Below are positions 8,975-59,775 of a DNA stretch of 64,000 nucleotides, piece after piece. The translations under genes were made by a program, and so were the position numbers. The notes under the pieces were generated by a model, which was not told the DNA's origin, did not search any database, and saw nothing but the letters and a program-made list of their open reading frames with translations. Numbering within the stretch: the stretch's first letter is position 1; every line of letters starts with the position of its first letter. Source of the DNA: Microtetraspora fusca (GTDB taxonomy: Bacteria > Actinomycetota > Actinomycetes > Streptosporangiales > Streptosporangiaceae); assembly GCF_001570365.1 (NCBI RefSeq), contig NZ_BBYK01000041.1, forward strand, positions 309,970 through 373,969, given 5' to 3'.

Positions 8975-10930
8975 ATGCATCACGACCCGCTGCTGCCGCC
9001 GGCGGTGGCACGTGCGCTCGAGGAGTACGGCGCGCTGCTCGCCGAGCACGGTCTCACCTGGGGGGAACCGCCCCTCGACTACGTCCGGATGATGACCTTC
9101 CTCCGGTTTCCAAAAGAGGCCGAGCGGATGTTCGTGACCCCTGGAGCCGACCTCGCCGCCGCCTTCCGGGACGTGCTCGGCGAGACCCTGCCGGACGGGC
9201 TCGTCGCACTCAGGGTCACGCCGCACGGCCACCGCTTCGACCCGGGGACGGTCCACGCGGTGGTGGCCGCCCGCCCGGTCGAGGCCACGCTCGTCGTCGA
9301 CTCCTCGCGCGACGCCGCGACCGTCGTCACCGTGGACGGCAGGCCGTACGAGATCGCGGCCCGCGGCGCGCTGCTGGTGGACATCCGTAGCGACTCCGAG
9401 GTGACCGTGGACGGCGCGCCGGTGGACCTGTCCCCACTCCGCCGCCACGCCCTGCCGTCGCGGCTGCGCCTGCGCGCCGGCTTCCCCTGCCGCTGGAGCG
9501 TGACCTCGGAGGGCGGCCAGGGCTGGTACCCCGAGGGCGCGCCGCACCGCCGCGACTACCACGGCCGGCCGTTCTTCCACGGCGACGACCTCGTGCTCGA
9601 CGTACCGGCCGAGATCCTCACCGTCCAGGTCACCCGGGGCATGGAGTACGACTGGGCCGAGACGACCGTCGTGCCCGAGCCGTGGGGGGAGACGCTCGTC
9701 GAGCTGACCCCCGAGCGGATCTATGACGCCGCCGCCCGCGGCTGGTACGGCGCCGACCTGCACGTGCACCTCAACTGGGCCGGCGACCTGGTCGCCCCGC
9801 CCGCCGCGGCCGCGCTGATGCAGCACGGCGAGGACCTGCACGTGCTCAACCTCGTCGCGGGCAACGTCTCCGGCGAGCGCGTCTACGACAGGGAGGCGCT
9901 CCAGCACTGGGCGGGACGCGACCTTCCCTGGTCGGACGCCGGGCACATCGCCCGGATGGGCGTGGAGTACCGCAACGACCTGTTCGGGCACGTCCACGCG
10001 TTCGGGGTGACCACCCCGCCCATGCGGTACCACACCGGTTTCGGCGGCGAGGCCGACTGGCCGCCGAACGGCGCCGCGTGCGGCGAGATGCGGGAGGCGG
10101 GGGCGGGGGCGGTGCTGGGCTACGCCCACCCCTTCCACCGCTCCATCGCCACGCCGGAGGACATCATCGCCGAGGGCCGCAGGAACTGCTCGGCCAGGGC
10201 GGTCGTGGTCGACGCCGCGCTCGGCCTCGTGGACGGCATGGAGCTGCTGCACTTCTCCGACATCGAGGGCACGGTCGAGGTCTACCGGCGACTGATCGGC
10301 GCGGGCAACCGGCTGACCGCGCTGGCCGGCACCGACTCCATGCTCTCGTTCACCCGGCAGGAGACCGTGTCCAGCCCGCCCGGCTGGGAGCGCGTCTACG
10401 CCCGGCTCGACGGCCCGCTCACCGCGGAGGCGTACGCCAAGGCGGTGCGGCGCGGCCGTACGTTCGCGACGACCGGGCCGTGGCTGGAGCTGTCGGTGGA
10501 CGGCCACCAGATCGGCGACACCCTCAACCTGTCCCCGGGCGACCGGGTGACGGTGCGGGCCAGGGCGATCGGCCCCGAGGTGGAGCGGGTCGAGATCCGC
10601 ACCGCGGACGGCGTGCTCGCCGAGGGCGGCGGAGGCGAGCTGACCGCCGCGCTCACCGTGACCGTGCCGACGTACCTCGTCGCGGTGGCCTCCGGCGGCG
10701 GCCACCGCCGGTCCCTGCACCGGCAGGTGTACGCGCACACCAGCCCGATCTACCTGGACGTGGCCGGACGGCACGTCGCCAGGGGCGAGGACGTCCGCTG
10801 GTGCCTGCGCTGGCTGGTCCTGCTGGAGGAACTGGTGCGCGGGCAGGCCCGGCTGGAGGGCGAGGGGCAGCTCCGCGACCATCTCGATCTCATCGTGAAG
10901 GCACGCGCGGTCTACCGGTCCCGCCTCTGA
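8975..10930 (+). CDS. CehA/McbA-like metallohydrolase (PHP-type domain)
   Basis: This 651-residue protein has a PHP-like metal-dependent hydrolase domain beginning at about residue 258 with WYGADLHVHLNWAGD, where the HxH pair is the usual first metal-ligand motif. Further candidate ligands are in GYAHPFHRSI and in LAGTDSMLSF. The N-terminal 250 residues form beta-rich domains of unknown role, and a predicted beta-sandwich follows the catalytic region (about 505-600). CehA and McbA are carbaryl hydrolases, but most members of the wider family have unknown substrates, so a phosphoesterase or carboxylesterase activity cannot be chosen. The gene stands alone, with a strong ribosome binding site, and ends against a bidirectional terminator. 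Confidence 0.8.
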   Translation: MHHDPLLPPAVARALEEYGALLAEHGLTWGEPPLDYVRMMTFLRFPKEAERMFVTPGADLAAAFRDVLGETLPDGLVALRVTPHGHRFDPGTVHAVVAARPVEATLVVDSSRDAATVVTVDGRPYEIAARGALLVDIRSDSEVTVDGAPVDLSPLRRHALPSRLRLRAGFPCRWSVTSEGGQGWYPEGAPHRRDYHGRPFFHGDDLVLDVPAEILTVQVTRGMEYDWAETTVVPEPWGETLVELTPERIYDAAARGWYGADLHVHLNWAGDLVAPPAAAALMQHGEDLHVLNLVAGNVSGERVYDREALQHWAGRDLPWSDAGHIARMGVEYRNDLFGHVHAFGVTTPPMRYHTGFGGEADWPPNGAACGEMREAGAGAVLGYAHPFHRSIATPEDIIAEGRRNCSARAVVVDAALGLVDGMELLHFSDIEGTVEVYRRLIGAGNRLTALAGTDSMLSFTRQETVSSPPGWERVYARLDGPLTAEAYAKAVRRGRTFATTGPWLELSVDGHQIGDTLNLSPGDRVTVRARAIGPEVERVEIRTADGVLAEGGGGELTAALTVTVPTYLVAVASGGGHRRSLHRQVYAHTSPIYLDVAGRHVARGEDVRWCLRWLVLLEELVRGQARLEGEGQLRDHLDLIVKARAVYRSRL

Positions 10931-10932
10931 CC

Positions 10933-10979
10933 GCCCTCGCCGCGGGCCCCTTCCCGGTGGGTCAGCCCGCGGCGAGGGC
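10933..10979. terminator. Bidirectional terminator hairpin
   Basis: GCCCTCGCCGCGGGC (10933-10947) is perfectly complementary to 10965-10979, giving a 15-bp stem with a 17-base loop. It lies between the converging metallohydrolase and the minus-strand membrane protein, and the right arm overlaps the 3' end of the latter. No strong U-tract follows on either side, as is common in high-GC actinomycetes. Confidence 0.75.
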
Positions 10980-12854
10980 CTGCGCCATCGCCCGCGCCAC
11001 GGCGAGGGCGCCCACCAGGCTCTCCTTGGCACCCATCAGCGTGGACTTGGGAGAGTTCAGCGGCGCGCCCTCCGGCCGGTCGGCGCCGAAGAAGTCGACC
11101 GTGACGACCGTCGAGCCGTACAGCACGGCCACCTGGCCGACCCCGGCGTGCACGGTGGGCGTCCGGTTGGTCCGGTACTGGCGGAAGGCGGCGTCGCCCA
11201 GGCCCTTGATGTCGGTCGAGGTGTACCAGAACAGGCCGCCGCCGATGCCGCTCCCGGCCAGCCTCCGGCCCTCGGCCCGCAGGTCGATGAACCGGTTCTT
11301 CGCGCCGTTGGGGTCCTCGGCGCCGACCCGGTTCGTGAAGCGCTGCACGGTGACCACCATGTTGCGCATCCGTGACTTGGCCCCCGCGGGGAACTCGCGG
11401 TTCAGCCAGATGCAGTCGGTGCTGGTGGACGCGGAGTCCTGGGTCTGGGTCGCCTTCTGGGTGGCCTGCGGCACGTACCGCAGCGCGACCGCCGACACCT
11501 GCTCGCAGGAGGCGGGCATCGCGATCGGGGTGGGCGACGGGGAGGCGTCGGCCGGCGGCGACGCCGCCGGGGTCGAACCGGAAGCGTCCGTACCGCCCGG
11601 ATCGCCTGGCGTGCTCGCCGGGCCGCGGCCGTTTCGCCACGCCGTCACCGACGCCGCCACCTCGCCCATGACCCCGGAGACCTCGCGCAGCGCGTTCTCC
11701 TCGGTCACGCCCTGCACGCCGTCCATGGAGAGGAGCGGCGCGTCCTTGCGCTGCTGGCTCGCCTGGTACTTCACCTCAATGACCACGTCGCCGACGCGGC
11801 CGATCGCCTGGCCGAAGGAGTACTTGTTGTTGCTGCTCTTGGCGTCCCGCGCCCACGTGTAGCGGGCGAACGCCTCCTCGCCGACACCGGACAGGGGGCG
11901 CACCTTGGAGCTGTAGTACTCCTTGGTCGAGTGGGCCTCGGCGTACTTGCCCGACGTCAGTTCGGCGTCGTAGGAGTCGCGGGCGACGCGGACGGCGGTG
12001 CGCTCGCCGTCCGCCTCGTAGCGGGTCAGCTTGAGCTCGATGCTCCGGGAGCGGACGTACTCGCCGAAGGAGAAGTTGTCATTGCGCAGCGTGCAGACCC
12101 AGGTGATGTAGCCGGTGTCCTCCCGGTGGTCCCGGGTGTCTCTGTCGGTCTTCGCCTGGGGGACCAGCCGCTCGACGGTCGCGCGGCGCGGCATGGCGCA
12201 CGCGTCCGGCGGGGCAAGCGTGGCGCGCGGAGACGAGGTCCCCGCCGGGCGCGCGGCGGCGTCGCCGTCCCCTTCCCGGAACACGAAGAAGGCGGTCGAG
12301 GCACCGGCGGCGACCAGCGCGGTCGCGGCGGCCACCGCCGGGACCACCTTGCTACGGCGGCGCCGGGGGACCGGCGCGACCAGCGCGCTCAGCCCCGTCG
12401 GCCCCGTCGGCGCACCCGGCATACCTGGTCCCGGCGGTACGGCCGGCCCGTTCGGCCCGGCGGGTGCACCGGGTGCGTGGAGCACCGGTGGATAGGACGC
12501 GGCGGGCCCATACATGCCGGCCCCTGATCCGTGGGGGCCGTTCGGCCCGTTCTGCCCGTCGGGGAGCGGGCCGTGGGAGAGACGGGGGCCCATCGGCATG
12601 GCGCCGGAGCCGTTCGGTGAGGAGGGCGTCGGGCCCGAAGCCGCTCCGTTCGGCCAGGACGGCGCGGATCCCGGGACCGGGCCGTTGGGCCAGGGCGGCA
12701 CGGCTCCTGGGGCCGCACCACCGTTCGGCGAGGACGGTGCGGATCCAGGGGGTGGGCCGCCCGGCGGTGGGCCGGGGTGGCCGGGCGGGGGCGTCATGGG
12801 GCGGTCGTCCCCGGCCTCGTTCGGATCGCGTGGGCCGTTTTCCTGGCTGTCCAT
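10962..12854 (-). CDS. Membrane-anchored protein with two DUF3558-like extracellular domains
   Basis: This 630-residue protein has an N-terminal cytoplasmic region of about 160 residues dominated by Pro, Gly, Ser and Asn (repeated PNG motifs such as SAPSWPNG). A membrane helix follows at about 170-190 (VVPAVAAATALVAAGASTAFFVF). The extracellular part has two related domains beginning PPDACAMPRRATVERLVPQA and PASCEQVSAVALRYVPQATQ, each with paired Cys. The domains resemble those at the ends of the two upstream kinases. The ATG at 12854 has GAGGAG at ideal spacing and is 17 bases from the preceding kinase stop, so it is the third gene of the operon. It lacks a kinase domain and could be a substrate or co-receptor; that is inference. 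Confidence 0.75.
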   Translation of the reverse strand: MDSQENGPRDPNEAGDDRPMTPPPGHPGPPPGGPPPGSAPSSPNGGAAPGAVPPWPNGPVPGSAPSWPNGAASGPTPSSPNGSGAMPMGPRLSHGPLPDGQNGPNGPHGSGAGMYGPAASYPPVLHAPGAPAGPNGPAVPPGPGMPGAPTGPTGLSALVAPVPRRRRSKVVPAVAAATALVAAGASTAFFVFREGDGDAAARPAGTSSPRATLAPPDACAMPRRATVERLVPQAKTDRDTRDHREDTGYITWVCTLRNDNFSFGEYVRSRSIELKLTRYEADGERTAVRVARDSYDAELTSGKYAEAHSTKEYYSSKVRPLSGVGEEAFARYTWARDAKSSNNKYSFGQAIGRVGDVVIEVKYQASQQRKDAPLLSMDGVQGVTEENALREVSGVMGEVAASVTAWRNGRGPASTPGDPGGTDASGSTPAASPPADASPSPTPIAMPASCEQVSAVALRYVPQATQKATQTQDSASTSTDCIWLNREFPAGAKSRMRNMVVTVQRFTNRVGAEDPNGAKNRFIDLRAEGRRLAGSGIGGGLFWYTSTDIKGLGDAAFRQYRTNRTPTVHAGVGQVAVLYGSTVVTVDFFGADRPEGAPLNSPKSTLMGAKESLVGALAVARAMAQALAAG

Positions 12855-36445: not shown

Positions 36446-37918
36446 TCACCCGGCTTCCTGGTCCCGCTCCTCCAGCGGCGGCGCCGCCAGGCCGCAGTGC
36501 GTACGCCCCGCGGGTCCGGGAGCCGCCGCCAGCACGTTCGACCTGATCGTGACGAACGCGATCGCGGCCGAGACCGCCAGCATGGCCGCGCCGACGAACA
36601 TCGCGGTGCGGAACCCCGAGGTGAACTCTCCCGGCGAGTCGTAGGCGCTGCCGGTCAGTCCGACCAGCGGCGGGATCGCGGCGACCGCGAGCAGGCTGCC
36701 GGTACGGGCCACCGCGTTGTTGATGCCGCTGGCCAGGCCCGCGTATCGCTCCCTGGCCGACGCCAGCACCGTCGCCGTCAGCGGAGCGACCGCCGCCGAC
36801 AGGCCCAGGCCGTACAGCATGGCCGCCGGGAAGACGTCCACGAGGTACGTGGCGCCCGGCCCGATGCGGCTCATCAGCAGCAGCCCCCCGGCGCACATCA
36901 GGATGCCGGCCGTCATGGGCAGGCGGGGACCGATCCGCTTGGCCAGATCGCCCGCGGGGGCCGACAACAGCAGCATCAGGACGGTGACCGGAAGCATCGC
37001 CAACCCCGCGGCGATCGGCGAGAACCCGGACGACACCTGCAACTGGACCACGAGCAGGAAGAAGACCACGCCCATCGCCGCGTACATGATCATCGTCACG
37101 ATGTTGATCGAGGTGAAGACCCGCGAGGCGAAGATCTGTACCGGAACGAGAGCCTGCGGCGAGCGGCGGACCTCCAGGACGGCGAAGCAGACGGCGAGCA
37201 CGACGCCGGCGGCCAGCGCGGCCCTCCCCGCGCCCGGCTCGATCAGGCCGTACGTGATGCCCGCGAGGGCCAGCGCAGCGAGCGCCGACCCCAGGACGTC
37301 GAAGCGTCCGGACGAGCGGATGTCCCTGCTCTCCGGCACGTGCCGGACGGTCACCAGCACGGTGACGGCCGCGATCGGAAGGTTGATCCAGAAGACCCAG
37401 TGCCAGCCGACCGCCTCCACCAGCCAGCCGCCGAGCAACGGCCCCACGGCCGCGGCGACGCCGCCCAGCCCCGACCACGCGCCGATCGCGCGGGGCCGGT
37501 CGTCCCTGGCGAAGCACGCCTGGATGATCGCCAGCGAGCCGGGGGTGAGCAGCGCCCCGCCGATGCCCTGCGCCGCCCGGGCGATCACGAGCACGGGGAC
37601 GTTGGGGGCGACGCCACAGAGGGCCGAGGCCAGCGCGAACCAGACGATCCCGATGAGGAAGATCTTGCGCCTGCCGTAACGGTCGCCGAGCGAGCCGCCG
37701 AGCAGGATCAGCGCGGCGAGGGTGAGCGTGTAGGCGTTCACCGTCCACTGGAGGCCCGACATGCCCGCGTCGAGGTCCCGGCCGATCGCGGGAAGCGCCA
37801 CGTTGACCACCGTGCTGTCGAGCATCGCCATCCCGGACCCCAGAACGGTCGCCAGGATGACCCACCGCCCGGTGGGGGACCGGAGTTGGATCTGATCGGA
37901 TTCCACACCGCCCATCAT
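36446..37918 (-). CDS. MFS transporter, DHA2 (EmrB/QacA) family
   Basis: This 490-residue membrane protein has about 14 predicted helices. The motif LDSTVVNVALPAIGRDL in helix 1 is the DHA2 motif D1, and LLGGSLGDRYGRRKIFLIG is motif A between helices 2 and 3. LAPLTAT- and NNAVARTGSLLAVA-type segments occur in the second half. These proton-driven pumps export drugs or other amphiphiles. ATG at 37918 has GGGAGG ten bases upstream; a second in-frame ATG follows at once. It is divergent from the STM4015-type operon, so a role in exporting that operon's product is conceivable but unproven. Confidence 0.9.
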   Translation of the reverse strand: MMGGVESDQIQLRSPTGRWVILATVLGSGMAMLDSTVVNVALPAIGRDLDAGMSGLQWTVNAYTLTLAALILLGGSLGDRYGRRKIFLIGIVWFALASALCGVAPNVPVLVIARAAQGIGGALLTPGSLAIIQACFARDDRPRAIGAWSGLGGVAAAVGPLLGGWLVEAVGWHWVFWINLPIAAVTVLVTVRHVPESRDIRSSGRFDVLGSALAALALAGITYGLIEPGAGRAALAAGVVLAVCFAVLEVRRSPQALVPVQIFASRVFTSINIVTMIMYAAMGVVFFLLVVQLQVSSGFSPIAAGLAMLPVTVLMLLLSAPAGDLAKRIGPRLPMTAGILMCAGGLLLMSRIGPGATYLVDVFPAAMLYGLGLSAAVAPLTATVLASARERYAGLASGINNAVARTGSLLAVAAIPPLVGLTGSAYDSPGEFTSGFRTAMFVGAAMLAVSAAIAFVTIRSNVLAAAPGPAGRTHCGLAAPPLEERDQEAG

Positions 37919-38014
37919 TGTCCGCGAACCTCCCATATGGCAGGGGAGGGGGCTTCCGACTCGCACCGGTGTGCTGTATCTGACGTCCGGGGAGGGGCGG
38001 GTAACTCGCGGGCG

Positions 38015-38185: not shown

Positions 38186-39154
38186 ATGGTCGACGACGAA
38201 TATCAGCGAGACACCCACGGCTACCGCGACCGCTACGCGGGTCTTCCGGTCGGGGAGGTCGACCTGGACGATGAGGGCGGTGAGCTTCCGGCCCCCGATT
38301 CGGTGGCCTGGCGGTTGTCGGCGGACACCTACGATGCCGAGCACACCTTCGCGGAGACGTTCGCCTGGTTCATGAAGCGGGTGGACACGACCAAGGTGAC
38401 CGCCATTGTGATCGGCGCCTGGGAGGACGCGTACGACACCTCGTCCGAGGAGATCATCCGCCTCCTGGCCGACAACGCCGCCCGCTTCCCCGCGCTGCGC
38501 TCGCTGTTCGTCGGGGCGATGGAGCCCGAGGAGTGCGAGATCTCGTGGATCGTGCAGTCCGACGTGACGCCGCTGCTGGAGGCCTTCCCGCTGCTCGAAC
38601 GGCTGGACGTCCGCGGCGGCACCGGCCTGGGGCTGCGCCCGATCCGGCACGCGGCGTTGAAGTCGCTCCGGCTGGAGACCGGAGGCCTGCCCGGCGCGGT
38701 CGTCCGCGGCGTGGGCGGCTGCGACCTCCCGGCGCTCGAGCACCTGGAGCTGTGGCTCGGCGTGGAAAACTACGGCGGCGACGCGAGCATGGCCGACCTG
38801 GAGGGCATCCTGTCCGGCGTCCGGCTGCCCGCCCTGCGCCATCTCGGCCTGCAGGACAGCGAGATCCAGGACGAGATCGCGGCGGCGGTCGCGTCCGCGC
38901 CCGTCGTCGCCCAGTTGGAGACGCTCAGCCTGTCCATGGGCGTGCTCACCGACGCCGGGGCCGAGGCGCTGCTCACCGGCCAGCCGCTGACCCACCTGCG
39001 CCGGCTCGACCTCCACCACCACTTCCTCAGCGGCGGGATGATGAAGCGGATCCACGAGGCGCTGCCCGGCGTCGAGATCGACCTCTCCGAGCAGGAGCAG
39101 GGCGACGACGACGGCGACGGCCGCGTCTGGCGCTACGTGGCGGTGAGCGAGTGA
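38186..39154 (+). CDS. STM4015-family leucine-rich-repeat-like protein
   Basis: This 322-residue protein has the pattern of the STM4015 family: WRLSADTYDAEHTFAETFAW near residue 45, then irregular leucine-rich repeats at about 110-300 (FPLLERLDVRGG, ALKSLRLETGG, LPALEHLELWLG, LPALRHLGLQDS, LETLSLSMGVLTD, LTHLRRLDLHHHFLS). The N-terminal part is very acidic. GAGGAG precedes the ATG at 38186. LRR-like folds usually serve protein-protein contact, so a scaffold or substrate-recognition role in the operon is plausible. It is the first of five genes. No characterised function for the family is known to me. Confidence 0.85.
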   Translation: MVDDEYQRDTHGYRDRYAGLPVGEVDLDDEGGELPAPDSVAWRLSADTYDAEHTFAETFAWFMKRVDTTKVTAIVIGAWEDAYDTSSEEIIRLLADNAARFPALRSLFVGAMEPEECEISWIVQSDVTPLLEAFPLLERLDVRGGTGLGLRPIRHAALKSLRLETGGLPGAVVRGVGGCDLPALEHLELWLGVENYGGDASMADLEGILSGVRLPALRHLGLQDSEIQDEIAAAVASAPVVAQLETLSLSMGVLTDAGAEALLTGQPLTHLRRLDLHHHFLSGGMMKRIHEALPGVEIDLSEQEQGDDDGDGRVWRYVAVSE

Positions 39155-39196
39155 GCGTGCGACGCGTGCCCGACCGGCGCGCGGAGCGCCGCGCGG

Positions 39197-40603
39197 ATGA
39201 GTGACGAGCAGAGCGACGTGCGGTTCGCCGTCGTCGGCACCCCGGGAGACCGCAGGGTGACGATGTTCCGCGACGCCGTGCTGCGCCGCGATCTCCCCGA
39301 GCCGGTCGTGATCTCCTGGAGCGACGTCCTCGCCGGTCTTCTCGCCCCCGGCGAACCATCCACGCCGACGCCGGACGTGACCGCACCGCGCGGGGGCGGA
39401 ACGGCGGGCGCCGGTGCGGATCGGCTCGGTGTGCCCGTGCACGATGACCATGCTCTCGATCTCCACGGGCCCGGTGCTCAGGGCCTCGGCTCCTGCGGAT
39501 TCGACGCGCTCGCGCCCGGGACGCTGGTCCGGATCGACTCTCCCGGCGAGGACGCCCGGGCCGACGCCCTGCTGCGCGGTCCCGGCGACCCGAGCCGGGT
39601 CACGGGCGGCGCCCGGTGGTACCGCACCTTCGTCGCCGGTCTGGCCAAGGTGCGGGACCTGACCGCGACCGTGCCGTCGGCGTGCCTTCTCGGCGATCCC
39701 GGGGAGATCGCGGTGATGTTCGACAAGCGGCTGAGCCATCGGCGGCTGCGTGACGCGGGCGTCCCCGTCCCGGACGCCCTGGCCGTCCCGGTCACCTCGT
39801 ACGACGAGTTGCGGGGGGAGATGGCGCGACGGCGCTGGACGCGTGTGTTCGTCAAACCCGCCCACGGCTCCTCGGCCTCCGGTGTGATCGCCTTCCAGGT
39901 CCACGGCGCCCGGGTCAAGGCGGTGACCTCGGCGGATCTGGGCCCGGGGCAGTCGTTGCACAACTCGCTGCGGGTCCGGACGTACGAGAGCGAGGACGAC
40001 GTCGCGACCATCGTCGGCGCGCTGGCTCCCGAGGGGCTGCACGTCGAGCGCTGGTTCTCCAAGGCGTCGCTCTCGGGACGGGCGTTCGACCTGCGGGTGG
40101 TGTGCGTGGCCGGGACGCCCACGCACGCGGTGGTGCGCCTCGGCCGAGGCCCCATGACGAACCTCCACCTGGGCGGCGCCCGGGGCGATCTCGACGGCGT
40201 GCGGGCGCGGCTGGGGCCGGCGACCTGGGAGCGCGTCATGGACGTGTGCGCGCGGGCCGCCGCCTGCTTCCCGCACAGCCTCGCGGTCGGCGTGGATGTC
40301 ATGGTGGGGGCGGACCTGCGTTCGGTGGCGGTCGCCGAGGTCAACGCCTTCGGCGATCTGCTGCCCGGCCTGCCCGGCCTCGCCGGGACCCCGGCGGCGG
40401 GCGTCGACACGTACGCCGCGCAGGTCGCGGCCGTGATCGACGGGTGGCGCCCCAAGGGTGGCGGCCTCCCGGCCCCGGCTCCCGATCCCGGCCGTCAGGA
40501 CATCGCGCCGAGCACGGCCTGCGGTGAGCCGCCGCGAGCGGGAGACGTCGCCGGCCAAGCGGATGGCCTGCGGGAGGCGGCGTACGGGGGACGGCATGCG
40601 TGA
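39197..40603 (+). CDS. STM4014-family ATP-grasp protein
   Basis: This 468-residue protein has an ATP-grasp core at about residues 165-405. It includes FDKRLSHRRLRDAGVPVPDA, the nucleotide-binding VFVKPAHGSSASGVIAF with Lys and Gly-rich loop, WFSKASLSGRAFDLRVVCVA, and the metal-binding VAVAEVNAFGDLLPGLPG (ExN). ATP-grasp enzymes join a carboxylate to an amine or thiol through an acyl phosphate, for example in peptide or cofactor synthesis; the substrates here are unknown. The C-terminal 50 residues are low complexity. Its stop lies inside the next gene (8-bp overlap), indicating coupling to the STM4013-type hydrolase. Confidence 0.85.
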   Translation: MSDEQSDVRFAVVGTPGDRRVTMFRDAVLRRDLPEPVVISWSDVLAGLLAPGEPSTPTPDVTAPRGGGTAGAGADRLGVPVHDDHALDLHGPGAQGLGSCGFDALAPGTLVRIDSPGEDARADALLRGPGDPSRVTGGARWYRTFVAGLAKVRDLTATVPSACLLGDPGEIAVMFDKRLSHRRLRDAGVPVPDALAVPVTSYDELRGEMARRRWTRVFVKPAHGSSASGVIAFQVHGARVKAVTSADLGPGQSLHNSLRVRTYESEDDVATIVGALAPEGLHVERWFSKASLSGRAFDLRVVCVAGTPTHAVVRLGRGPMTNLHLGGARGDLDGVRARLGPATWERVMDVCARAAACFPHSLAVGVDVMVGADLRSVAVAEVNAFGDLLPGLPGLAGTPAAGVDTYAAQVAAVIDGWRPKGGGLPAPAPDPGRQDIAPSTACGEPPRAGDVAGQADGLREAAYGGRHA

Positions 40604-41447
40604 CATGAACGCCGTCGTGGGCAGCCACGACATCCTGCTGGTGACCCTCGACACGTTGCGCTACGACGTGGCCGCCGAGCTGGTCGAGGCGGGGCGACTG
40701 CCCACCCTCGCCCGCGTCCTGCCCGGAGGGCGCTGGGAGCGCCGCCACAGTCCCGGCAGCTTCACCTATGCCGCGCACGCCGCGATGCTCGCCGGGTTCC
40801 TGCCGACACCGGCCGAGCCGGGGCCGCATCCCCGGCCGTTCGCCGCCGTCTTCCCCGGCAGTGAGACGACCGCTTCCGGAACCTGGGTCTTCGACGCGCC
40901 AGACCTTCCGGCGGGGCTGGCCGCGGCGGGCTACCACACGGTCTGCGTCGGGGGAGTGGGCTTCTTCAACAAGCTGACGCCGCTCGGCTCGGCCCTGCCC
41001 GGCCTGTTCGCGGAGAGTCACTGGGAGCCCGAGTTCGGCGTGACCTCCGAACACTCCCTGGAGCGGCAGATCGACCGTGCCGAGCGGGCACTACGGGACG
41101 TCGAGCGGCCGGTGTTCCTACTGCTCAACGTGTCCGCGCTGCACCAGCCGAACTGGTTTCACCTGCCCGGAGCGACCCGGGAGCACGGCGACACGAGAGA
41201 GAGCCACGCCGCCGCCCTGGAGTACGTGGACCGGCACATCGGGCGGCTGTTCGCGCTGATGACGCGGCGTCGCCCGTGCTTCGCGATCGTCTGCTCCGAC
41301 CACGGAACGGCGTACGGCGAGGACGGTCACACCGGCCACCGGATCGGACACGAGATGGTGTGGACGGTCCCCTACGCCGAGTTCGTCCTGGACCACGCCC
41401 CGCGCGCGACGCCGACCGGGGAGCGGGAGCCGGGCGATGGCGCATGA
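40596..41447 (+). CDS. STM4013/SEN3800-family hydrolase (alkaline phosphatase/sulfatase superfamily)
   Basis: This 283-residue protein begins like a sulfatase/phosphoglycerate-mutase-type hydrolase: HDILLVTLDTLRYDV (metal-binding Asp) and SPGSFTYAAHAAMLAGFLP, where a Ser/Thr near HSPGSFTYAAH replaces the sulfatase Cys-x-Pro-x-Arg motif. The closing metal site is IVCSDHGTAYGEDGHTGHRI, with DHG and two later His. It is likely metal-dependent, cleaving or transferring a phosphate, phosphonate or sulfate ester. ATG at 40596 follows GGGGGA; ATG at 40605 is an in-frame alternative. Its stop overlaps the next start (ATGA). Confidence 0.85.
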   Translation: MRDMNAVVGSHDILLVTLDTLRYDVAAELVEAGRLPTLARVLPGGRWERRHSPGSFTYAAHAAMLAGFLPTPAEPGPHPRPFAAVFPGSETTASGTWVFDAPDLPAGLAAAGYHTVCVGGVGFFNKLTPLGSALPGLFAESHWEPEFGVTSEHSLERQIDRAERALRDVERPVFLLLNVSALHQPNWFHLPGATREHGDTRESHAAALEYVDRHIGRLFALMTRRRPCFAIVCSDHGTAYGEDGHTGHRIGHEMVWTVPYAEFVLDHAPRATPTGEREPGDGA

Positions 41448-43039
41448 CGTCACCCCGGACGCCGGACGTACGGACGTCGGCGGCGGGCGCGGGGCAGCGA
41501 GGACGGTCGAGCGGGACATGGAACATGAGCGACACAGGGGGCACGGCCGTGCGGACGGAGAGTGACGTGAAGCGGAGCGGCGCCGTCGACATCGGCGTCG
41601 GCGCGCCACGGCCGGAGCGGGTGCACAGTGTGCCGGCGCGCCACGAGGCACCGCGGGCGAATGGCGACAGCCCCCACGACGAAGCGGACGGTGACGGCCT
41701 CTACCACGAAGCAGGCGATGACGGCCTCTACCACGAAGCGGACGGCGACAGCCCTTACCAGGGATACGTGTACGCCTACCCGCACAAGACGGCCTATCGG
41801 GAGCTCGACCCGCGCCCCCTGCTCCGCGATGTGTGGGCGGGGGAGCGCACCGACGCGCTCTTCCTCTACGTGCACATCCCCTTCTGCGAGATGCGCTGCG
41901 GGTTCTGCAACCTGTTCACCCGGACCGGCGCCCCCGAGGAGCTGACCACGGCCTACCTGGACGCCCTCGAACGGCAGGCGGGGGCCGTCCGCGACGCCCT
42001 GGGCGAGGCCCCCCGGTTCGTGACGTCCGCGATCGGCGGCGGCACGCCGACCTATCTCAGCGCGGGCGAGCTGACCCGCCTGTTCGACCTCACCGAGCAG
42101 ATCATGGGAGTCGACCTGCGGACGATCCCGCTGTCGGTGGAGACCTCGCCCGCGACCGCGACCCCCGACCGGCTGGCCGTACTCGCCGAGCGCGGCACGA
42201 CCCGGGTGTCGATCGGCGTGCAGAGCTTCATCGACGCCGAGGCCCGTTCGGCCGTCCGGCCCCAGCGGCGGGCCGAGGTCGAGACGGCGCTCGGCGCGAT
42301 CCGCGCCCAGGGGTTCGAGACGCTGAACATCGACCTGATCTACGGGATCGACGGCCAGACCCCGGTGTCCTGGCGGCACTCCCTCGACGCCGCCCTCGCC
42401 TGGCGGCCGGAGGAACTGTACCTCTACCCGCTGTACGTCCGGCCGCTGACCGGTCTGGGCCGGCAGGGCCGGGCATGGGACGACCAGCGTCTGGAGCTGT
42501 ACCGCGTCGGCCGCGACCATCTGCTGGCCGCCGGATACGAGCAGGTTTCCATGCGGATGTTCCGCCTGCCCGGCTGCGGCGGCAGCACCGAGTACTGCTG
42601 CCAGACCGACGGCATGGTCGGCCTCGGATGCGGCGCCCGCTCCTACACTGGCGACCTGCACTACTCGTACGAGTACGCGGTGGGCGCCCGCCACGTCCGG
42701 GCGATCATCGACGAGTACGTCCGCCTGCCGCGCGAGGAGTTCGCGGTGGCGAACGTCGGCTTCCGGCTCGACGACGAGGAGCGCCGCCGCCGTCATCTGA
42801 TCCAGTCGCTGCTCCAGGCGGAGGGGCTCTCCCGGGCCGACTACGGGAACCGCTTCGGGACCGACGTGCTGGCGGACTTCGGCGACGAACTGGCGCGGTT
42901 CGCGGGACGCGGGTGGATGGAGGTCGGCGACCAGGCGGTGCGGCTCACCGCCGAGGGACTGGCCTACTCGGACGCGGTCGGCCCGGCGCTGTTCTCCCGC
43001 CGGGTCGGGACGCTGATGGACGGCTACGAAGAGCGATGA
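41444..43039 (+). CDS. STM4012-family radical SAM protein (HemN-like)
   Basis: The 4Fe-4S site is CEMRCGFC (Cys148, 152 and 155, numbered from ATG 41444) within LFLYVHIPFCEMRCGFCNLF. Downstream come SAIGGGTPTYLSAGELTRLF, SVETSPATATPDRLA, RVSIGVQSFIDAEARSAVRP and LNIDLIYGIDGQT, the HemN-like barrel signature, plus a HemN C-terminal-like domain. The family is distinct from true coproporphyrinogen dehydrogenase by context and by the VYAYPHKTAYRELDPRPLL entry segment. The first 105 residues are non-conserved and include three 9-residue repeats (HEADGDGLY-like). ATG at 41444 overlaps the previous stop; ATG at 41525 is an alternative. The stop overlaps the STM4011-type start. The substrate is unknown. 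Confidence 0.88.
   Translation: MTSPRTPDVRTSAAGAGQRGRSSGTWNMSDTGGTAVRTESDVKRSGAVDIGVGAPRPERVHSVPARHEAPRANGDSPHDEADGDGLYHEAGDDGLYHEADGDSPYQGYVYAYPHKTAYRELDPRPLLRDVWAGERTDALFLYVHIPFCEMRCGFCNLFTRTGAPEELTTAYLDALERQAGAVRDALGEAPRFVTSAIGGGTPTYLSAGELTRLFDLTEQIMGVDLRTIPLSVETSPATATPDRLAVLAERGTTRVSIGVQSFIDAEARSAVRPQRRAEVETALGAIRAQGFETLNIDLIYGIDGQTPVSWRHSLDAALAWRPEELYLYPLYVRPLTGLGRQGRAWDDQRLELYRVGRDHLLAAGYEQVSMRMFRLPGCGGSTEYCCQTDGMVGLGCGARSYTGDLHYSYEYAVGARHVRAIIDEYVRLPREEFAVANVGFRLDDEERRRRHLIQSLLQAEGLSRADYGNRFGTDVLADFGDELARFAGRGWMEVGDQAVRLTAEGLAYSDAVGPALFSRRVGTLMDGYEER
41681..41761 (+). repeat. Three 27-bp tandem repeats in the radical SAM gene
   Basis: Imperfect copies at 41681-41707, 41708-41734 and 41735-41761 encode EADGDGLYH, EAGDDGLYH and EADGDSPYQ. 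They lie just before the conserved part of the STM4012-type protein. The period keeps the frame, so copy number can change without inactivating the enzyme. Confidence 0.85.
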
Positions 43040-44064
43040 ACGACAGGACGCTCCCGATCGTGTCCCCGGCCCGCCGTGATCCGTATGGGGAGCCCCGCCG
43101 TGAGCCGCACGGGGAGCCCCACCGTGAGCCGCACGGGGAGCCCCACCGTGAGACCGTCCGCCCGGCCGACTGCCCGGCGGAGGATCCGGCACGGCGGGAT
43201 GCCGGGGACGGGCATCTGTCGATCCTCTACCGGGGGCCGCTCGCGAGCTGCGACTACGACTGCGCGTACTGCCCCTTCGCCAAGCGGAGGGACGACCCGG
43301 AGCGCCTGCGCGCGGACCGGTCGGCGCTGCAGCGCTTCACCGCGTGGGTGGCCGGGCGCGACCACCCGGTTTCGGTGCTGTTCACGCCGTGGGGCGAGGC
43401 TCTGGTCCGCTCCTGGTACCGGGCGGCCATGGTGGAGTTGAGCCGCCTTCCGCAGGTGCGCAGGGTGGCCGTGCAGACCAACCTGAGCTGCCGCACCGGC
43501 TGGCTCGCCGACGCGGATCTCACCCGGCTCGCGCTGTGGGTCACCTACCACCCCAGCCAGGTCGCCCACGACCGGTTCCTCGACAAGTGCCGGGAGCTGT
43601 CCCGGCTCGGCGTACGGCACAGCGTGGGCATCGTCGGCCATCCGGATCACCTGGACGCCGCCCGCCGGCTCCGCGCCGACCTGCCCGCCGGCACCTACCT
43701 CTGGGTGAACGCCGAGGAGGGCCGCCGCTACACGGACGACGAGGCGGCGGAGTGGGCCGCGATCGACCCGCTCTTCGGATACAGCAGGTTCGCGCACGCG
43801 AGCGCCGGGCTCGCCTGCCGTACCGGAGAGAGCGTGGTCTCGGTGAGCGGGGACGGCACGGTCCGGCGCTGCCATTTCATCCCCGAGGTGATCGGCAACC
43901 TCTACGACGGGTCGTTCGAGGGAGCGCTGCGGCCCCGGCCGTGTCCCGCCGCCACCTGTGACTGCCACATCGGTTACGTCCATCTGGAGCCGCTCGGCCT
44001 GTACGACGTCTTCGCCGAGGGGATCCTCGAACGGGTCCCCGCCGGATGGCCCGCCCTGCCCTGA
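43036..44064 (+). CDS. STM4011-family radical SAM protein
   Basis: This 342-residue protein has a canonical radical SAM cluster CDYDCAYC (Cys72, 76 and 79) in LYRGPLASCDYDCAYCPFAK. Barrel elements include VSVLFTPWGEALVRSWYRAA, RRVAVQTNLSC and WVTYHPSQVAHDRFLDKC. A C-terminal set of four Cys (VRRCHFIPEVIGNLYDG, then PCPAATCDCHIGY) is well placed to hold an auxiliary Fe-S cluster, as in SPASM/twitch-type enzymes that act on peptides. Residues 15-40 are a repeated GEPHREPH tract. ATG at 43036 overlaps the previous stop (ATGA), so the gene is translated last in the five-gene operon. The function is not established. Confidence 0.88.
   Translation: MNDRTLPIVSPARRDPYGEPRREPHGEPHREPHGEPHRETVRPADCPAEDPARRDAGDGHLSILYRGPLASCDYDCAYCPFAKRRDDPERLRADRSALQRFTAWVAGRDHPVSVLFTPWGEALVRSWYRAAMVELSRLPQVRRVAVQTNLSCRTGWLADADLTRLALWVTYHPSQVAHDRFLDKCRELSRLGVRHSVGIVGHPDHLDAARRLRADLPAGTYLWVNAEEGRRYTDDEAAEWAAIDPLFGYSRFAHASAGLACRTGESVVSVSGDGTVRRCHFIPEVIGNLYDGSFEGALRPRPCPAATCDCHIGYVHLEPLGLYDVFAEGILERVPAGWPALP
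43087..43155 (+). repeat. 24-bp tandem repeats in the second radical SAM gene
   Basis: Units at 43087-43110 and 43111-43134 differ at one base, and a third partial unit follows from 43135. They encode GEPRREPH and GEPHREPH and add a charged His-rich N-terminal tract before the catalytic domain of the STM4011-type protein. Confidence 0.85.
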
Positions 44065-44122: not shown

Positions 44123-45475
44123 TCAGGTCTCGCGCTCGGGCTGGTACTCCTCCTCCGTGACGCCGAACGTCCAGGCCACGCCCTGTCGCGCCCGCACGAT
44201 CCACGGGGGCACGCGCAGGAAGTAGGTGCGGCGGGTGCCGTCCGGCTCGGGGGTGGAGTTGACGACCTCGACCATGGTCACGTCCTCGTCCCCGGGCAGG
44301 GAGATCTGCCAGAGCACGCCGGTCTCGTCCGCGTGGACGGGAGACGCGCCCGAGTCGGCGAGATAGCGGTCGTAGCCGTAGTGCTCCAGCATGACCCGGC
44401 GCAGCTCGGCGTTGTCCTCGCCGCGGATCCGGGCGGGGTCGAGCGCGGCCATCGTCTCACCGAATCCGACGGGGACCGGCATCCCGTGCCAGGCGTTCAG
44501 GGCGAAACCGTCCGCGAAGAGCAGCGCGGGGCCCTCAGCGCGGTGCAGCCGGCCGAGGTCGTCGAGGTGCAGCTCCAGCGGCCGCTCGCACAGCAGCGCG
44601 ACCCGCTCGAGGGGCCACCACCAGCCGGCCGACCGCGCCACGTCGTAGAGCCCGCCGAGCGCGGACCGCTCCGCCTCCGCCACTCCGGAGAGGATCTCGC
44701 GGAGCACGCCCGGGTCGGGGGCGAAGGCGCACAGCCACGCGGCGTCATGCTGGCCGAGAACGGCGTCGAGCGTCGCTCCGCGCAGCAGTTCGCCCGCCGC
44801 GCGGTCCAGCCGGGCCGCCGCACTCCCGGCCGCCGCGCCGCCGCCGCTCGTCGCGCTCCCGGCTGCCGCGCTCCTGGCTGCTGCGCTCCCGGCCGCCGCC
44901 GCGCCGCCGCTCGTCGCGGCCCCGGTCGCCTCGGCGCTGTTCGCCTCGGCCGCTGTCGCGCCTCCCACCGGTGCCCCGGCCGCCGCGATCCCCGCGAACG
45001 GGCTGCCGTCCGTGTCGCGATCTCCGGCGATCGCCCGCCGGATCTCGATCACGAGGCGGTTCACCTGCGGCCACAGCTCGCCGCCGCTCGACGCCCACGC
45101 GCCCGACCAGCCCGCCGGGCCGAGCACCTCGTGGACGGCGCGACGGGCGCGTTCCCACGGCCCGGTGCGTACGGCGTCGCGGACGTTGCGCCCGGCGGGA
45201 GCCGTGCCGACGAGGGCGAGCGCCCGGTCGACGATCTCGCCCAGACCGGCGGCGGCCAGGGTCGCCCGGGCCTCGGGCCCCCCGGACAGCGCGGCCGCGG
45301 CCACCGCCCCGGCCGCCGGGGACCCGAACCAGAGAATGCGCTCCGGCTCGGGCAGCCCGGCATCGCGGTACGCGCGACGCACACCGGCCTCCGCGACAGC
45401 ACGGTCCGCGGGCCCGGTGGCGAGCGCCACCTCACGCCAGGCGACGGCGAAATCGACGCTGAGATCGGTCGTCAT
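44123..45475 (-). CDS. DUF6745-like protein of unknown function
   Basis: This 450-residue protein has a helical N-terminal half (MTTDLSVDFAVAWREVALAT onward) and a conserved C-terminal domain: GFALNAWHGMPVPVGFGE, then EHYGYDRYLADSGASPVHAD, VTMVEVVNSTPEPDGTRRTY and FLRVPPWIVRARQGVAWTFG. I associate this C-terminal pattern with DUF6745 from memory. Between the halves (about 165-215) lies a low-complexity Ala/Ser/Gly insertion made of imperfect repeats such as SAAARSAAAGSATSGGGAAA. The start overlaps the stop of the upstream 108-residue gene (TGATG), so the two are a coupled pair. No catalytic motif was recognised. Confidence 0.65.
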   Translation of the reverse strand: MTTDLSVDFAVAWREVALATGPADRAVAEAGVRRAYRDAGLPEPERILWFGSPAAGAVAAAALSGGPEARATLAAAGLGEIVDRALALVGTAPAGRNVRDAVRTGPWERARRAVHEVLGPAGWSGAWASSGGELWPQVNRLVIEIRRAIAGDRDTDGSPFAGIAAAGAPVGGATAAEANSAEATGAATSGGAAAAGSAAARSAAAGSATSGGGAAAGSAAARLDRAAGELLRGATLDAVLGQHDAAWLCAFAPDPGVLREILSGVAEAERSALGGLYDVARSAGWWWPLERVALLCERPLELHLDDLGRLHRAEGPALLFADGFALNAWHGMPVPVGFGETMAALDPARIRGEDNAELRRVMLEHYGYDRYLADSGASPVHADETGVLWQISLPGDEDVTMVEVVNSTPEPDGTRRTYFLRVPPWIVRARQGVAWTFGVTEEEYQPERET

Positions 45476-45801
45476 CAGTCGGCCACCACCCGGAACGCGC
45501 CGGGGACGTACTCCCGCTGCCTGATCACCTGGTACCACCCCTTCGGCAAGGAGATCGCGTCGTGTTCCTCGTGAACGAGCCGTCCGCCGGAGGGCAGATG
45601 CAGAAACCCGGGGTTGTGCGGGCTGGGGTCGAGCAGCAGGGTGCCGGGCCCCGGGATCGCGTGGGCGTGCCCCGTCGCCTCGCCGAGGGCGAGGACGAGA
45701 CGACCACGCGAATCACGCTGCTGCGGCGGCAACGCCCGAGCCCGCGCGGGCACGGCTTCCTCGGCCACAGGAACGATCAGGATGTCTCCCTGCCGGTACA
45801 C
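45475..45801 (-). CDS. Small conserved protein coupled to DUF6745-like gene
   Basis: This 108-residue protein starts with GTG at 45801 behind AAAGGAG. It reads MYRQGDILIVPVAEEAVP, then LVLALGEATGHAHAIPGPGT, GFLHLPSGGRLVHEEHDAIS and a YQVIRQREYVPGAFR end. The His-rich ATGHAHAI and VHEEHDAI segments and the compact beta-rich pattern suggest a small cupin-like or similar fold, but this is not secure. It is the first gene of a two-gene operon divergent from lon and is always likely to be expressed with its partner. No function known. Confidence 0.65.
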   Translation of the reverse strand: MYRQGDILIVPVAEEAVPARARALPPQQRDSRGRLVLALGEATGHAHAIPGPGTLLLDPSPHNPGFLHLPSGGRLVHEEHDAISLPKGWYQVIRQREYVPGAFRVVAD

Positions 45802-58185: not shown

Positions 58186-59775
58186 TCAGGGCCGCGGCCG
58201 GGGAAGATCGCCGGAATCGCCGGGCCGGCGCGCCACCCGGGCCGTCAGATCGGCGCGTACGGCGACGCCGGAGCGAGTGGGACGCGTACGGGACACAGTG
58301 CCACGGACGGCGGATGCCCCGGCACGCGGGCGGGGCACGACGGCGCGCGCGCCGGGCGGCGGCGCCTGCGCGGGAACGCCGCTCCCCGTCCACGGCGGGC
58401 GGCGGGCCACGTGCTGGGGAGCCGAGGACGACCACAGCAGGCTCCCGGCGGCGACCGCGGCGACGAGGACCAGCCAGGCGAGCGCGCGGCCGGTCCGCAG
58501 GCCGTACCCGCACAGCAGCCAGTAGACGCCGAGGACGGCCCGGGCGGCGGGACCGGCGGCGGCCATCCGGCGCATCTCCATCGCGCCGAACGCGAAGTCG
58601 GTCGCGGTGCGGTCGTCGTCCACCCGCAGGCCCGTGTACAGATGTTTCAGACGGCCGGGATCGAGCGCCGGCCGGGCCGGGCCGAAGCGCCAGGCGTGCT
58701 CGTCGGCGAGGATCTGGCGCCTGCTCCACCACCGGACGGGCGGCCAGCTCAGCCGGAGCTGGACGCCGCGCGGGGTGGTGGCGAACACGCAGCCGGACAG
58801 CCGCAGCCGTCCCGGGTCGGGCACCCCGGCGAGGTGGCATCCGCTCAGGTCCGCGCCCGACAGGGTCAGCCGGTCGACGTCGAGCCGTTCCAGGGACAGC
58901 ACCCGCACCCGGCCGGAGCGGCGCACGACGCTCGCCTGGCCGCGGGAGACGAGGCCGTGCAGGTCCACGTCGGCGTCGTCGAGCCGGAGCGTCAGCCGTC
59001 CCTCGGTCCGGGCGTTCCTGAGGTCGACCAGGCAGCCGGACGCGTCGATCTCCAGCTTGCCGTCGGCCCGCGCCCCCGCGAGGTTGAGCCGCCCGGCGAC
59101 CGATCTGGGAGACAGGAACGCCCCGTCCGTGAACCGCGCGCCCTCGAACGCGGCGGCGCCGTCGAACCAGGCACGGGACAGGGAGACGGCCCGCCGGAAC
59201 CGGGCGCCGCGAAACCGGGCCTCGCCGTGGAACAGGGTGCCGTCGAACGAGGTGAACCCGCGGAACTCGGCCCGGTCGAAGGACGCCGACGACAGGCAGG
59301 CGTCGCCGAAGAGCGCGTCGCTGCCCACGCTGGACCGGTCGAACGAGGCGTGGCCGTGGACGCGGGAGCCGTGCATGGTCAGCTCGCGGGCGAACACCGC
59401 CTCGCCGAAGGAGGCGTTGCCGGTGAACCGGGCGCCGAAGAACGAGGCCAGGCCGTCGAAGCGGGCCCGGTCGAACGTCGCGTCGCCCAGGAACTCCACC
59501 CCGGCGAACCGCGCGGGACCGGTGAAGCGGGCCAGGTCGAAACGGGCCCGGCCGAGGCGGCGGCCGGCCGCGTCCAGCACGAGGTCGAGCAGTTCGGCGC
59601 TCACCGCCGTGCCGCGCAGATCGACGGCGTGTCCGGGGGAGAGGGCCCGGAGCGCGGACTCCAGCTCGCCGGGGTCCAGGTGCGCCAGACAGCGTCCGTA
59701 CGGCGGATGCGCGGCGCCGGGGCAGTCGTCGCGCGCGCACGTGATCCAGCCGACGTCGAGAAGGCTTGGGGGCAT
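58186..59775 (-). CDS. Pentapeptide-repeat membrane protein
   Basis: This 529-residue protein begins with a small Cys/His motif (CARDDCPGAAHPPYGRCLAH) that may bind zinc. About 25 A(D/N)LxF/ARF-type pentapeptide repeats follow at about residues 75-330 (for example RARFDLARFTGPARFAGVEF and DATFDRARFDGLASFFGARF), forming a right-handed beta-helix. A hydrophobic pair of helices at about 415-465 (RALAWLVLVAAVAAGSLLWS) anchors it. The last 65 residues are basic and disordered. Pentapeptide proteins can mimic DNA or scaffold others; the membrane anchor makes a gyrase-protection role less likely. The function is unknown. Confidence 0.85.
   Translation of the reverse strand: MPPSLLDVGWITCARDDCPGAAHPPYGRCLAHLDPGELESALRALSPGHAVDLRGTAVSAELLDLVLDAAGRRLGRARFDLARFTGPARFAGVEFLGDATFDRARFDGLASFFGARFTGNASFGEAVFARELTMHGSRVHGHASFDRSSVGSDALFGDACLSSASFDRAEFRGFTSFDGTLFHGEARFRGARFRRAVSLSRAWFDGAAAFEGARFTDGAFLSPRSVAGRLNLAGARADGKLEIDASGCLVDLRNARTEGRLTLRLDDADVDLHGLVSRGQASVVRRSGRVRVLSLERLDVDRLTLSGADLSGCHLAGVPDPGRLRLSGCVFATTPRGVQLRLSWPPVRWWSRRQILADEHAWRFGPARPALDPGRLKHLYTGLRVDDDRTATDFAFGAMEMRRMAAAGPAARAVLGVYWLLCGYGLRTGRALAWLVLVAAVAAGSLLWSSSAPQHVARRPPWTGSGVPAQAPPPGARAVVPRPRAGASAVRGTVSRTRPTRSGVAVRADLTARVARRPGDSGDLPRPRP

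Follow-up and report, generated by a model that had tools for sequence, protein, structure and literature searches.

A conserved radical SAM/ATP-grasp system and its proposed target, the C-terminal glutamate of the leucine-rich repeat protein STM4015

What is made by a set of genes whose families were named, yet have remained function-less, for two decades? This question is raised by a 64,000-nucleotide stretch of the Microtetraspora fusca genome (NCBI RefSeq assembly GCF_001570365.1, contig NZ_BBYK01000041.1, positions 309,970 to 373,969 of the forward strand), referred to here as the window and numbered from its first letter. It carries the genes STM4015-STM4014-STM4013-STM4012-STM4011, which encode a leucine-rich repeat (LRR) protein, an ATP-grasp ligase, a hydrolase and two radical S-adenosylmethionine (SAM) enzymes. 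No function has been assigned to them in the literature, as the initial annotation of this DNA had stated; we found no functional paper on STM4011-STM4015, and single genes are mentioned only in a positive selection screen and for a weak sigma54 site inside STM4013. Our analysis points, with modest confidence, to a system in which STM4014 couples an amine to the glutamate at the C-terminus of STM4015, with remodeling by STM4012, STM4011 and STM4013. The features concerned are:

38186..39154 (+), STM4015 family protein, 322 aa (NCBIfam NF038076, 400 bits, cut-off 275)
39134..39151 (+), tail of STM4015, YVAVSE, ending in the invariant glutamate; proposed modification site
39197..40603 (+), STM4014 family ATP-grasp ligase, 468 aa (NF038074, 403 bits, cut-off 175)
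40596..41447 (+), STM4013/SEN3800 family hydrolase of the alkaline-phosphatase superfamily (NF038075, 412 bits, cut-off 250)
41444..43039 (+), STM4012 family HemN-like radical SAM enzyme (NF006067, 639 bits, cut-off 380)
43036..44064 (+), STM4011 family radical SAM enzyme (NF038073, 397 bits, cut-off 200)

All five genes are complete, and each far exceeds its curated NCBIfam cut-off, in agreement with the families named initially. The layout on one strand had likewise been described correctly, with a gap of 42 bp between STM4015 and STM4014 followed by overlaps of 8 bp (STM4014/STM4013), 4 bp (STM4013/STM4012, ATGA) and 4 bp (STM4012/STM4011). The first approximately 100 residues of STM4012, counted from the ATG at 41444, are unconserved and the family profile begins at residue 104, so that the true start may lie further in. 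STM4015 occurs as a single copy in this genome.

Two sets of sequences were compared, namely 80 loci retrieved via STM4012, all from Actinomycetota, and an even order-level sample of 150 genomes to which the family cut-offs were applied; phyla beyond the Actinomycetota were reached via plasmid records only. STM4011 was present at 80, STM4013 at 79, STM4015 at 78 and, after a tblastn check, STM4014 at 78 of the 80 loci, and the two loci without STM4015 are cut contigs. In the order-level sample, STM4011, STM4015 and STM4014 were each above the cut-off in 87 genomes, which were essentially the same 87. The mismatches seen were one genome in which STM4011 is cut by a contig end (G476) and a 480-contig assembly with STM4011 only (G499). 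No full-length STM4015 was found in genomes of this sample that lack STM4014. Gene order is kept in Actinomycetota, Deinococcota, Bacillota and Alpha- and Gammaproteobacteria, and this check of co-occurrence and order upholds the earlier view of a discrete, conserved set. At least 570 species contigs matched in one scan, and the families are spread over at least seven bacterial classes or phyla. The distribution of the operon is wide but patchy and includes plasmid copies, which would fit the transferable system suggested initially. STM4015 is rare in the phylum as a whole (6 of 396 evenly sampled genomes), and among 5,426 genomes of E. coli the Salmonella operon has no near-identical counterpart. 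A PADLOC defence search gave no match of note.

The STM4015 family profile matched PDB entry 2RA8, a structural-genomics structure of a family member from Bacteroides fragilis, with an E-value of 4e-92, and ribonuclease inhibitors with values of 1e-10 to 1e-13. By profile comparison STM4015 is thus a ribonuclease-inhibitor-like LRR protein, as its initial description as LRR-like had anticipated, and sequence comparison revealed no conserved Cys in the family. The C-terminus follows the pattern [YF]-[VIT]-x-[VA]-[SAG]-E-COOH and is preceded by a hypervariable, mostly acidic linker of variable length. The terminal Glu was present in 150 of 150 proteins of a first set and in all 184 of the final set. 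In the latter, position -6 is Tyr in 146 proteins, Phe in 35 and another residue in 3, position -3 is mostly Val or Ala, and position -2 mostly a small residue. The tail is kept across six phyla, including members from Deinococcus, Paenibacillus, Methylobacterium, Salmonella, Bacteroides and Calothrix. Unlike that of STM4015, the C-termini of the four enzymes STM4011-STM4014 are ragged.

STM4015 is frequently multiplied, with up to six copies in tandem and up to eight per genome. Between tandem paralogues, identity drops from 59% in the body to 14% in the linker and reaches 74% over the last six residues. Copies located hundreds of kb to Mb away from STM4014 retain the tail, and it is spelled like that of the linked copies of the same genome or genus (YYTA[AV][SA]E). 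Among pairs with 40-55% body identity, a comparison of non-independent pairs from few genomes, 74-80% of the tail was shared within a genome versus 43-55% between genomes, and no such within-genome excess was found in the linker. From the retention of the tail in unlinked copies and its likeness within genomes, we read the tail as being maintained by a genome-wide partner that would work in trans. In addition, an orphan STM4015 gene (L155:3822-4850) lies near a gene for a B12-dependent radical SAM C-methyltransferase of the type involved in maturation of ribosomally synthesized and post-translationally modified peptides (RiPPs) (L155:363-2315, minus strand; TIGR03975, 561 bits). A Calothrix plasmid encodes an STM4015 homologue (L098:2014-3288) with the tail RYCSVAE, and no STM4011-STM4014 gene was present in the 11 kb read.

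A candidate for such a partner is STM4014. Its profile matched LysX first among PDB entries (1.4e-5) and RimK next (1e-4), with Ddl and cyanophycin synthetase lower. A Foldseek search with its AlphaFold2 model (predicted local distance difference test score, pLDDT, of 82) identified ArgX bound to LysW as the best match (3.7e-11), followed by PsnB with its precursor, DcsG, LysX and RimK; the graspetide ligase MdnC was also among the nearest folds. In VIA-align, the first nine rows were taken up by LysX, ArgX and RimK with Z-scores of 21.4-22.6; PPIP5K, PurK and Ddl reach about 21, within about 1.5 of these enzymes, so that the fold hints at a protein acceptor without proving one. The residues of the ATP site and metal binding (K177, K220, E284, R300, D367, E381 and N383) are conserved, leaving the catalytic residues intact. 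Despite these closest matches in fold and profile, STM4014 scored far below the cut-off of TIGR02144, the LysX/ArgX type (E 0.08), and its 13.7 bits against TIGR00768 (cut-off 143.4) place it outside the RimK family.

STM4014 also moves in company with STM4015. The operons of Sinosporangium album and Thermocatellispora tengchongensis lack STM4014, and the gene is found elsewhere in the same genome, in one case beside a second STM4015 copy (L115) and in the other beside an STM4015 remnant that keeps the C-terminal end (L114). The loss from these two operons was therefore rejected as counter-evidence.

Taken together, these observations are best accommodated, in our judgment, by the proposed ligation to the STM4015 tail, in favor of which the resemblance of STM4011 to the peptide-modifying radical SAM enzyme SkfB in its cluster region also counts. 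STM4014, as a putative enzyme of the LysX/ArgX/RimK type, would activate a carboxylate of the terminal Glu with ATP and join it to an amine, either an amino acid or an amine building block. The HemN-like STM4012 and the SPASM-like STM4011 would then remodel the attached unit or the STM4015 tail, while STM4013, in some lineages together with a HAD-IIB phosphatase, may remove or process a phosphate ester. The LRR domain could serve as a docking handle, as a target-binding head, or as both. Since one kind of tail is common to as many as eight STM4015 paralogues whose bodies differ, we lean toward a group that stays on STM4015 and away from release from a single carrier; a group set free as in LysW pathways is a possible alternative.

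Besides the closeness of the Z-scores, several points weigh against this proposal. The within-genome excess in tail likeness vanishes above 55% body identity and, as noted, derives from few genomes and non-independent pairs. The operon encodes no peptidase or carrier-release enzyme, and the enzymes of the lysine pathway other than the ligase have no counterpart. For STM4012, STM4011 and STM4013, the roles proposed above are guessed from the class of fold. Finally, the C-terminal motif could instead be a docking signal. STM4015 would then be a scaffold or sensor whose tail docks non-covalently to an enzyme, and the operon product would be a free small molecule. LRR proteins bind partners, a short C-terminal motif with an invariant last residue fits a recognition signal, and the HAD and phosphodiesterase-like partners suggest phosphorylated metabolites. 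However, the kinship of STM4014 with protein-acting ligases would be left unexplained, and many linked and unlinked paralogues carry the tail although a single scaffold would suffice. We regard such a scaffold as quite unlikely.

The ligation proposal has its nearest precedents in amino-group carrier proteins and in RimK. LysX joins an amine to the gamma-carboxyl group of the C-terminal Glu of LysW (PMC10433800), and RimK extends the C-terminus of ribosomal protein S6 (RpsF), which ends in Glu (PMC4741518). As in STM4015 with its terminal Glu in 184 of 184 proteins, the carrier LysW has a fixed terminal Glu after an acidic stretch (EDWGE); LysX and ArgX are ATP-grasp ligases with the same fold as STM4014, and further enzymes act on the unit once attached to the LysW Glu (PMC10433800, PMC9303977). 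In contrast to LysW, a zinc protein of about 54 aa, STM4015 is an LRR protein of about 300 aa without conserved Cys. The STM operon also lacks LysZ/LysY/LysJ/LysK-type genes and has radical SAM and phosphodiesterase-like enzymes as well as many paralogous carriers. STM4014 is structurally equally similar to RimK, likewise an ATP-grasp ligase extending a protein that ends in Glu; RimK, however, has no radical SAM partners, and S6 is a single-copy ribosomal protein. By analogy, the STM system would work like LysW/LysX or RimK, yet by its carrier fold and by the family cut-offs it belongs to neither. A further precedent is provided by the pearlins 3-thiaglutamate and 3-thiahomoleucine, in which an amino acid is assembled on the C-terminal end of a carrier of ribosomal origin, with radical SAM enzymes catalyzing some of the steps (PMC9303977). 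This C-terminal build-up and the involvement of radical SAM enzymes resemble the STM proposal, whereas pearlins are loaded by tRNA-dependent (LanB-like) PEARL enzymes. No PEARL ligase is among the gene products of the five operon genes and the two adjoining genes described below; the rest of the genome was not searched.

The graspetide ligases PsnB and MdnC share the ATP-grasp fold and modify acidic side chains in a ribosomally synthesized precursor. They lead to another, RiPP-like explanation, in which the radical SAM enzymes alter the STM4015 tail internally by cross-linking, decarboxylation or methylation, as for pyrroloquinoline quinone (PQQ), mycofactocin or graspetides, STM4014 closes an amide or ester, and the end is retained or cut off as a cofactor or peptide. 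The place of both ligases among the nearest folds of STM4014, the resemblance of STM4011 to SkfB and the conserved aromatic residue and terminal Glu in the tail are in line with such a route. However, Glu alone is invariant, with Phe replacing Tyr at -6 in 35 of 184 proteins, the tail contains no conserved Ser/Thr/Lys acceptor or Cys, and a folded LRR of 300 residues would be an unusual leader. Graspetide precursors are short and have several conserved acceptors, and STM4015, with only its terminal Glu invariant, does not qualify as one. We consider a RiPP-like route unlikely. A PQQ-like Glu-Tyr cross-link was rejected, as the Tyr at -6 is not invariant.

The initial annotation had guessed at a peptide- or protein-modifying pathway. 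This guess now has a firmer basis, although what is modified is probably the tail of STM4015 itself and not a separate small peptide. Beyond the two adjoining genes, no further universally conserved neighbor emerged as a separate small RiPP precursor, open reading frames of less than 110 aa not having been systematically clustered. Identifying the tail as the likely substrate narrows an uncharacterized radical SAM operon to the C-terminus of one protein and one ligase. As the families had already been named, the gene set is not new; the new element would be the proposed chemistry, a variant of C-terminal carrier or tail-modifying systems. If true, the proposed modification would construct a chemical group on a protein by a novel route; it would unite amino-group carrier proteins, RimK and pearlins in a wider theme of last-residue protein chemistry, to which radical chemistry and target-binding LRR heads would be added. 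More tentatively, and on balance with some doubt, the system may represent an unrecognized class of protein modification, in which a LysX/RimK-like ligase, acting in trans on scattered copies, places one and the same radical-SAM-made group on the invariant C-terminal Glu of LRR proteins that differ in their binding surfaces.

The sequences of the remaining three enzymes are consistent with active catalysts. STM4012 retains C148, C152 and C155 and an additional C386 in 87 of 87 proteins. A role as heme-pathway enzyme was rejected, since it falls below all HemN/HemW cut-offs (123 versus 325 bits for TIGR00538). STM4011 has a CxxxCxxC motif and, instead of the four extra C-terminal Cys reported initially, five that are invariant (C261, C279, C303, C308 and C310, each 90 of 90). 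Its C-terminal cluster region matched that of SkfB (6efn, 2e-4), and STM4011 is a radical SAM enzyme with SPASM-like auxiliary cysteines that resembles the peptide-modifying SkfB in this region. The nearest PDB relatives of STM4013 are the nucleotide pyrophosphatases NPP 7n1s and 2gsn (7e-8 to 2e-7), and D19, T57, H61, D212, D235, H236, H248 and H252 are each conserved in 88 of 88 proteins. STM4013 is thus closest to nucleotide pyrophosphatases/phosphodiesterases, with Thr57 at the nucleophile position.

The proximity of a SPASM-like radical SAM enzyme to a hydrolase of the sulfatase superfamily might alternatively indicate that STM4011 matures STM4013 by formylglycine formation, like an anaerobic sulfatase-maturating enzyme, the other genes forming a sulfatase pathway. 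However, the nucleophile site reads Thr57-Tyr-Ala-Ala-His61, without a Cys/Ser-x-Pro-x-Arg motif. As Thr57 takes the place of the sulfatase Cys/Ser and His61 that of the Arg, and as the nearest relatives are nucleotide pyrophosphatases, this explanation is contradicted by the sequence and is very improbable.

The two genes adjoining the end of STM4011 are convergent with the operon:

44123..45478 (-), DUF6745 protein, 451 aa from the ATG at 45478, ending in YQPERET (PF20530, 328 bits)
45475..45801 (-), small protein of 108 aa, GTG start after an AAAGGAG site, 4-bp overlap with the DUF6745 gene (profile match)

The small protein is encoded at 74 and DUF6745 at 73 of the 80 STM4012 loci. Convergent and downstream in Deinococcus and in the window's relatives, the pair is divergent and upstream in Streptomyces and co-directional and upstream in Methylobacterium, and this varied placement argues for a functional link to the operon rather than an inherited position. 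We infer that the two proteins are accessory partners of the operon and that the two-gene unit belongs with the set. Hence the operon had been termed complete with good reason as far as its five genes are concerned, but the pair, which also belongs to it, had been missed, as had a HAD-IIB phosphatase gene found in other lineages. The pair is not obligatory: in four genomes that lack it at the locus, DUF6745 is missing altogether, and the pair is absent from the Salmonella locus and from the Paenibacillus and Bacteroides plasmid copies. The name-giving Salmonella locus has the same five genes in the same order and keeps the terminal Glu (AMYTE); it differs from the window in lacking the pair and in having a HAD-IIB phosphatase gene directly after STM4011. 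Eleven actinomycete genomes that have no DUF6745 likewise carry a HAD-IIB gene after STM4011.

Could the seven genes simply be loosely associated housekeeping-type genes, such as heme-related radical SAM genes, without a common pathway? The pair is sometimes missing, and on plasmid pDFI2 of D. ficus (L097:7989-9325) it lies beside a gene for a VWA protein without an STM4015 operon in the vicinity. As regards the five core genes, however, the near-perfect co-occurrence of STM4015, STM4014 and STM4011 in the 150 genomes and the order kept across phyla contradict a loose association, which we regard as scarcely credible. The five core genes and the pair form a discrete conserved system.

The AlphaFold2 model of the small protein is a predicted beta-barrel (pLDDT 86), in which the last residues reach a pLDDT of only 43; this C-terminal tail is conserved yet predicted to be disordered. 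Searches of Pfam, the PDB and folds returned no match apart from weak cupin-like rows. Fixed C-termini occur also in the DUF6745 protein ([EQ]T) and in the small protein (AD). In Bacteroides finegoldii (L015:7669-8742 and 10121-11686), STM4015 begins with a WGR-like domain and STM4011 forms a fusion with a HAD-like domain; STM4013 and STM4012 were present at this locus only as weak fragments.

Two further features border the operon:

36446..37966 (-), DHA2 efflux transporter of the major facilitator superfamily, divergent upstream of STM4015 (TIGR00711, 235 bits)
44075-44086/44100-44111, perfect 12-bp inverted repeat (CCACGCGGGCGC / GCGCCCGCGTGG) between the convergent units, read from the sequence

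The transporter gene occurs in 8 of 36 sampled loci, including the Paenibacillus plasmid (L012); besides the window, seven other Streptosporangiales-type loci carry it. It is at most a possible loose associate, perhaps an exporter or a chance neighbor. The inverted repeat is a possible terminator common to both convergent units; it was not listed by the terminator scan because it has no T-run. At 58186-59775 (-), the window also encodes a protein rich in pentapeptide repeats (PF13576, four stretches).

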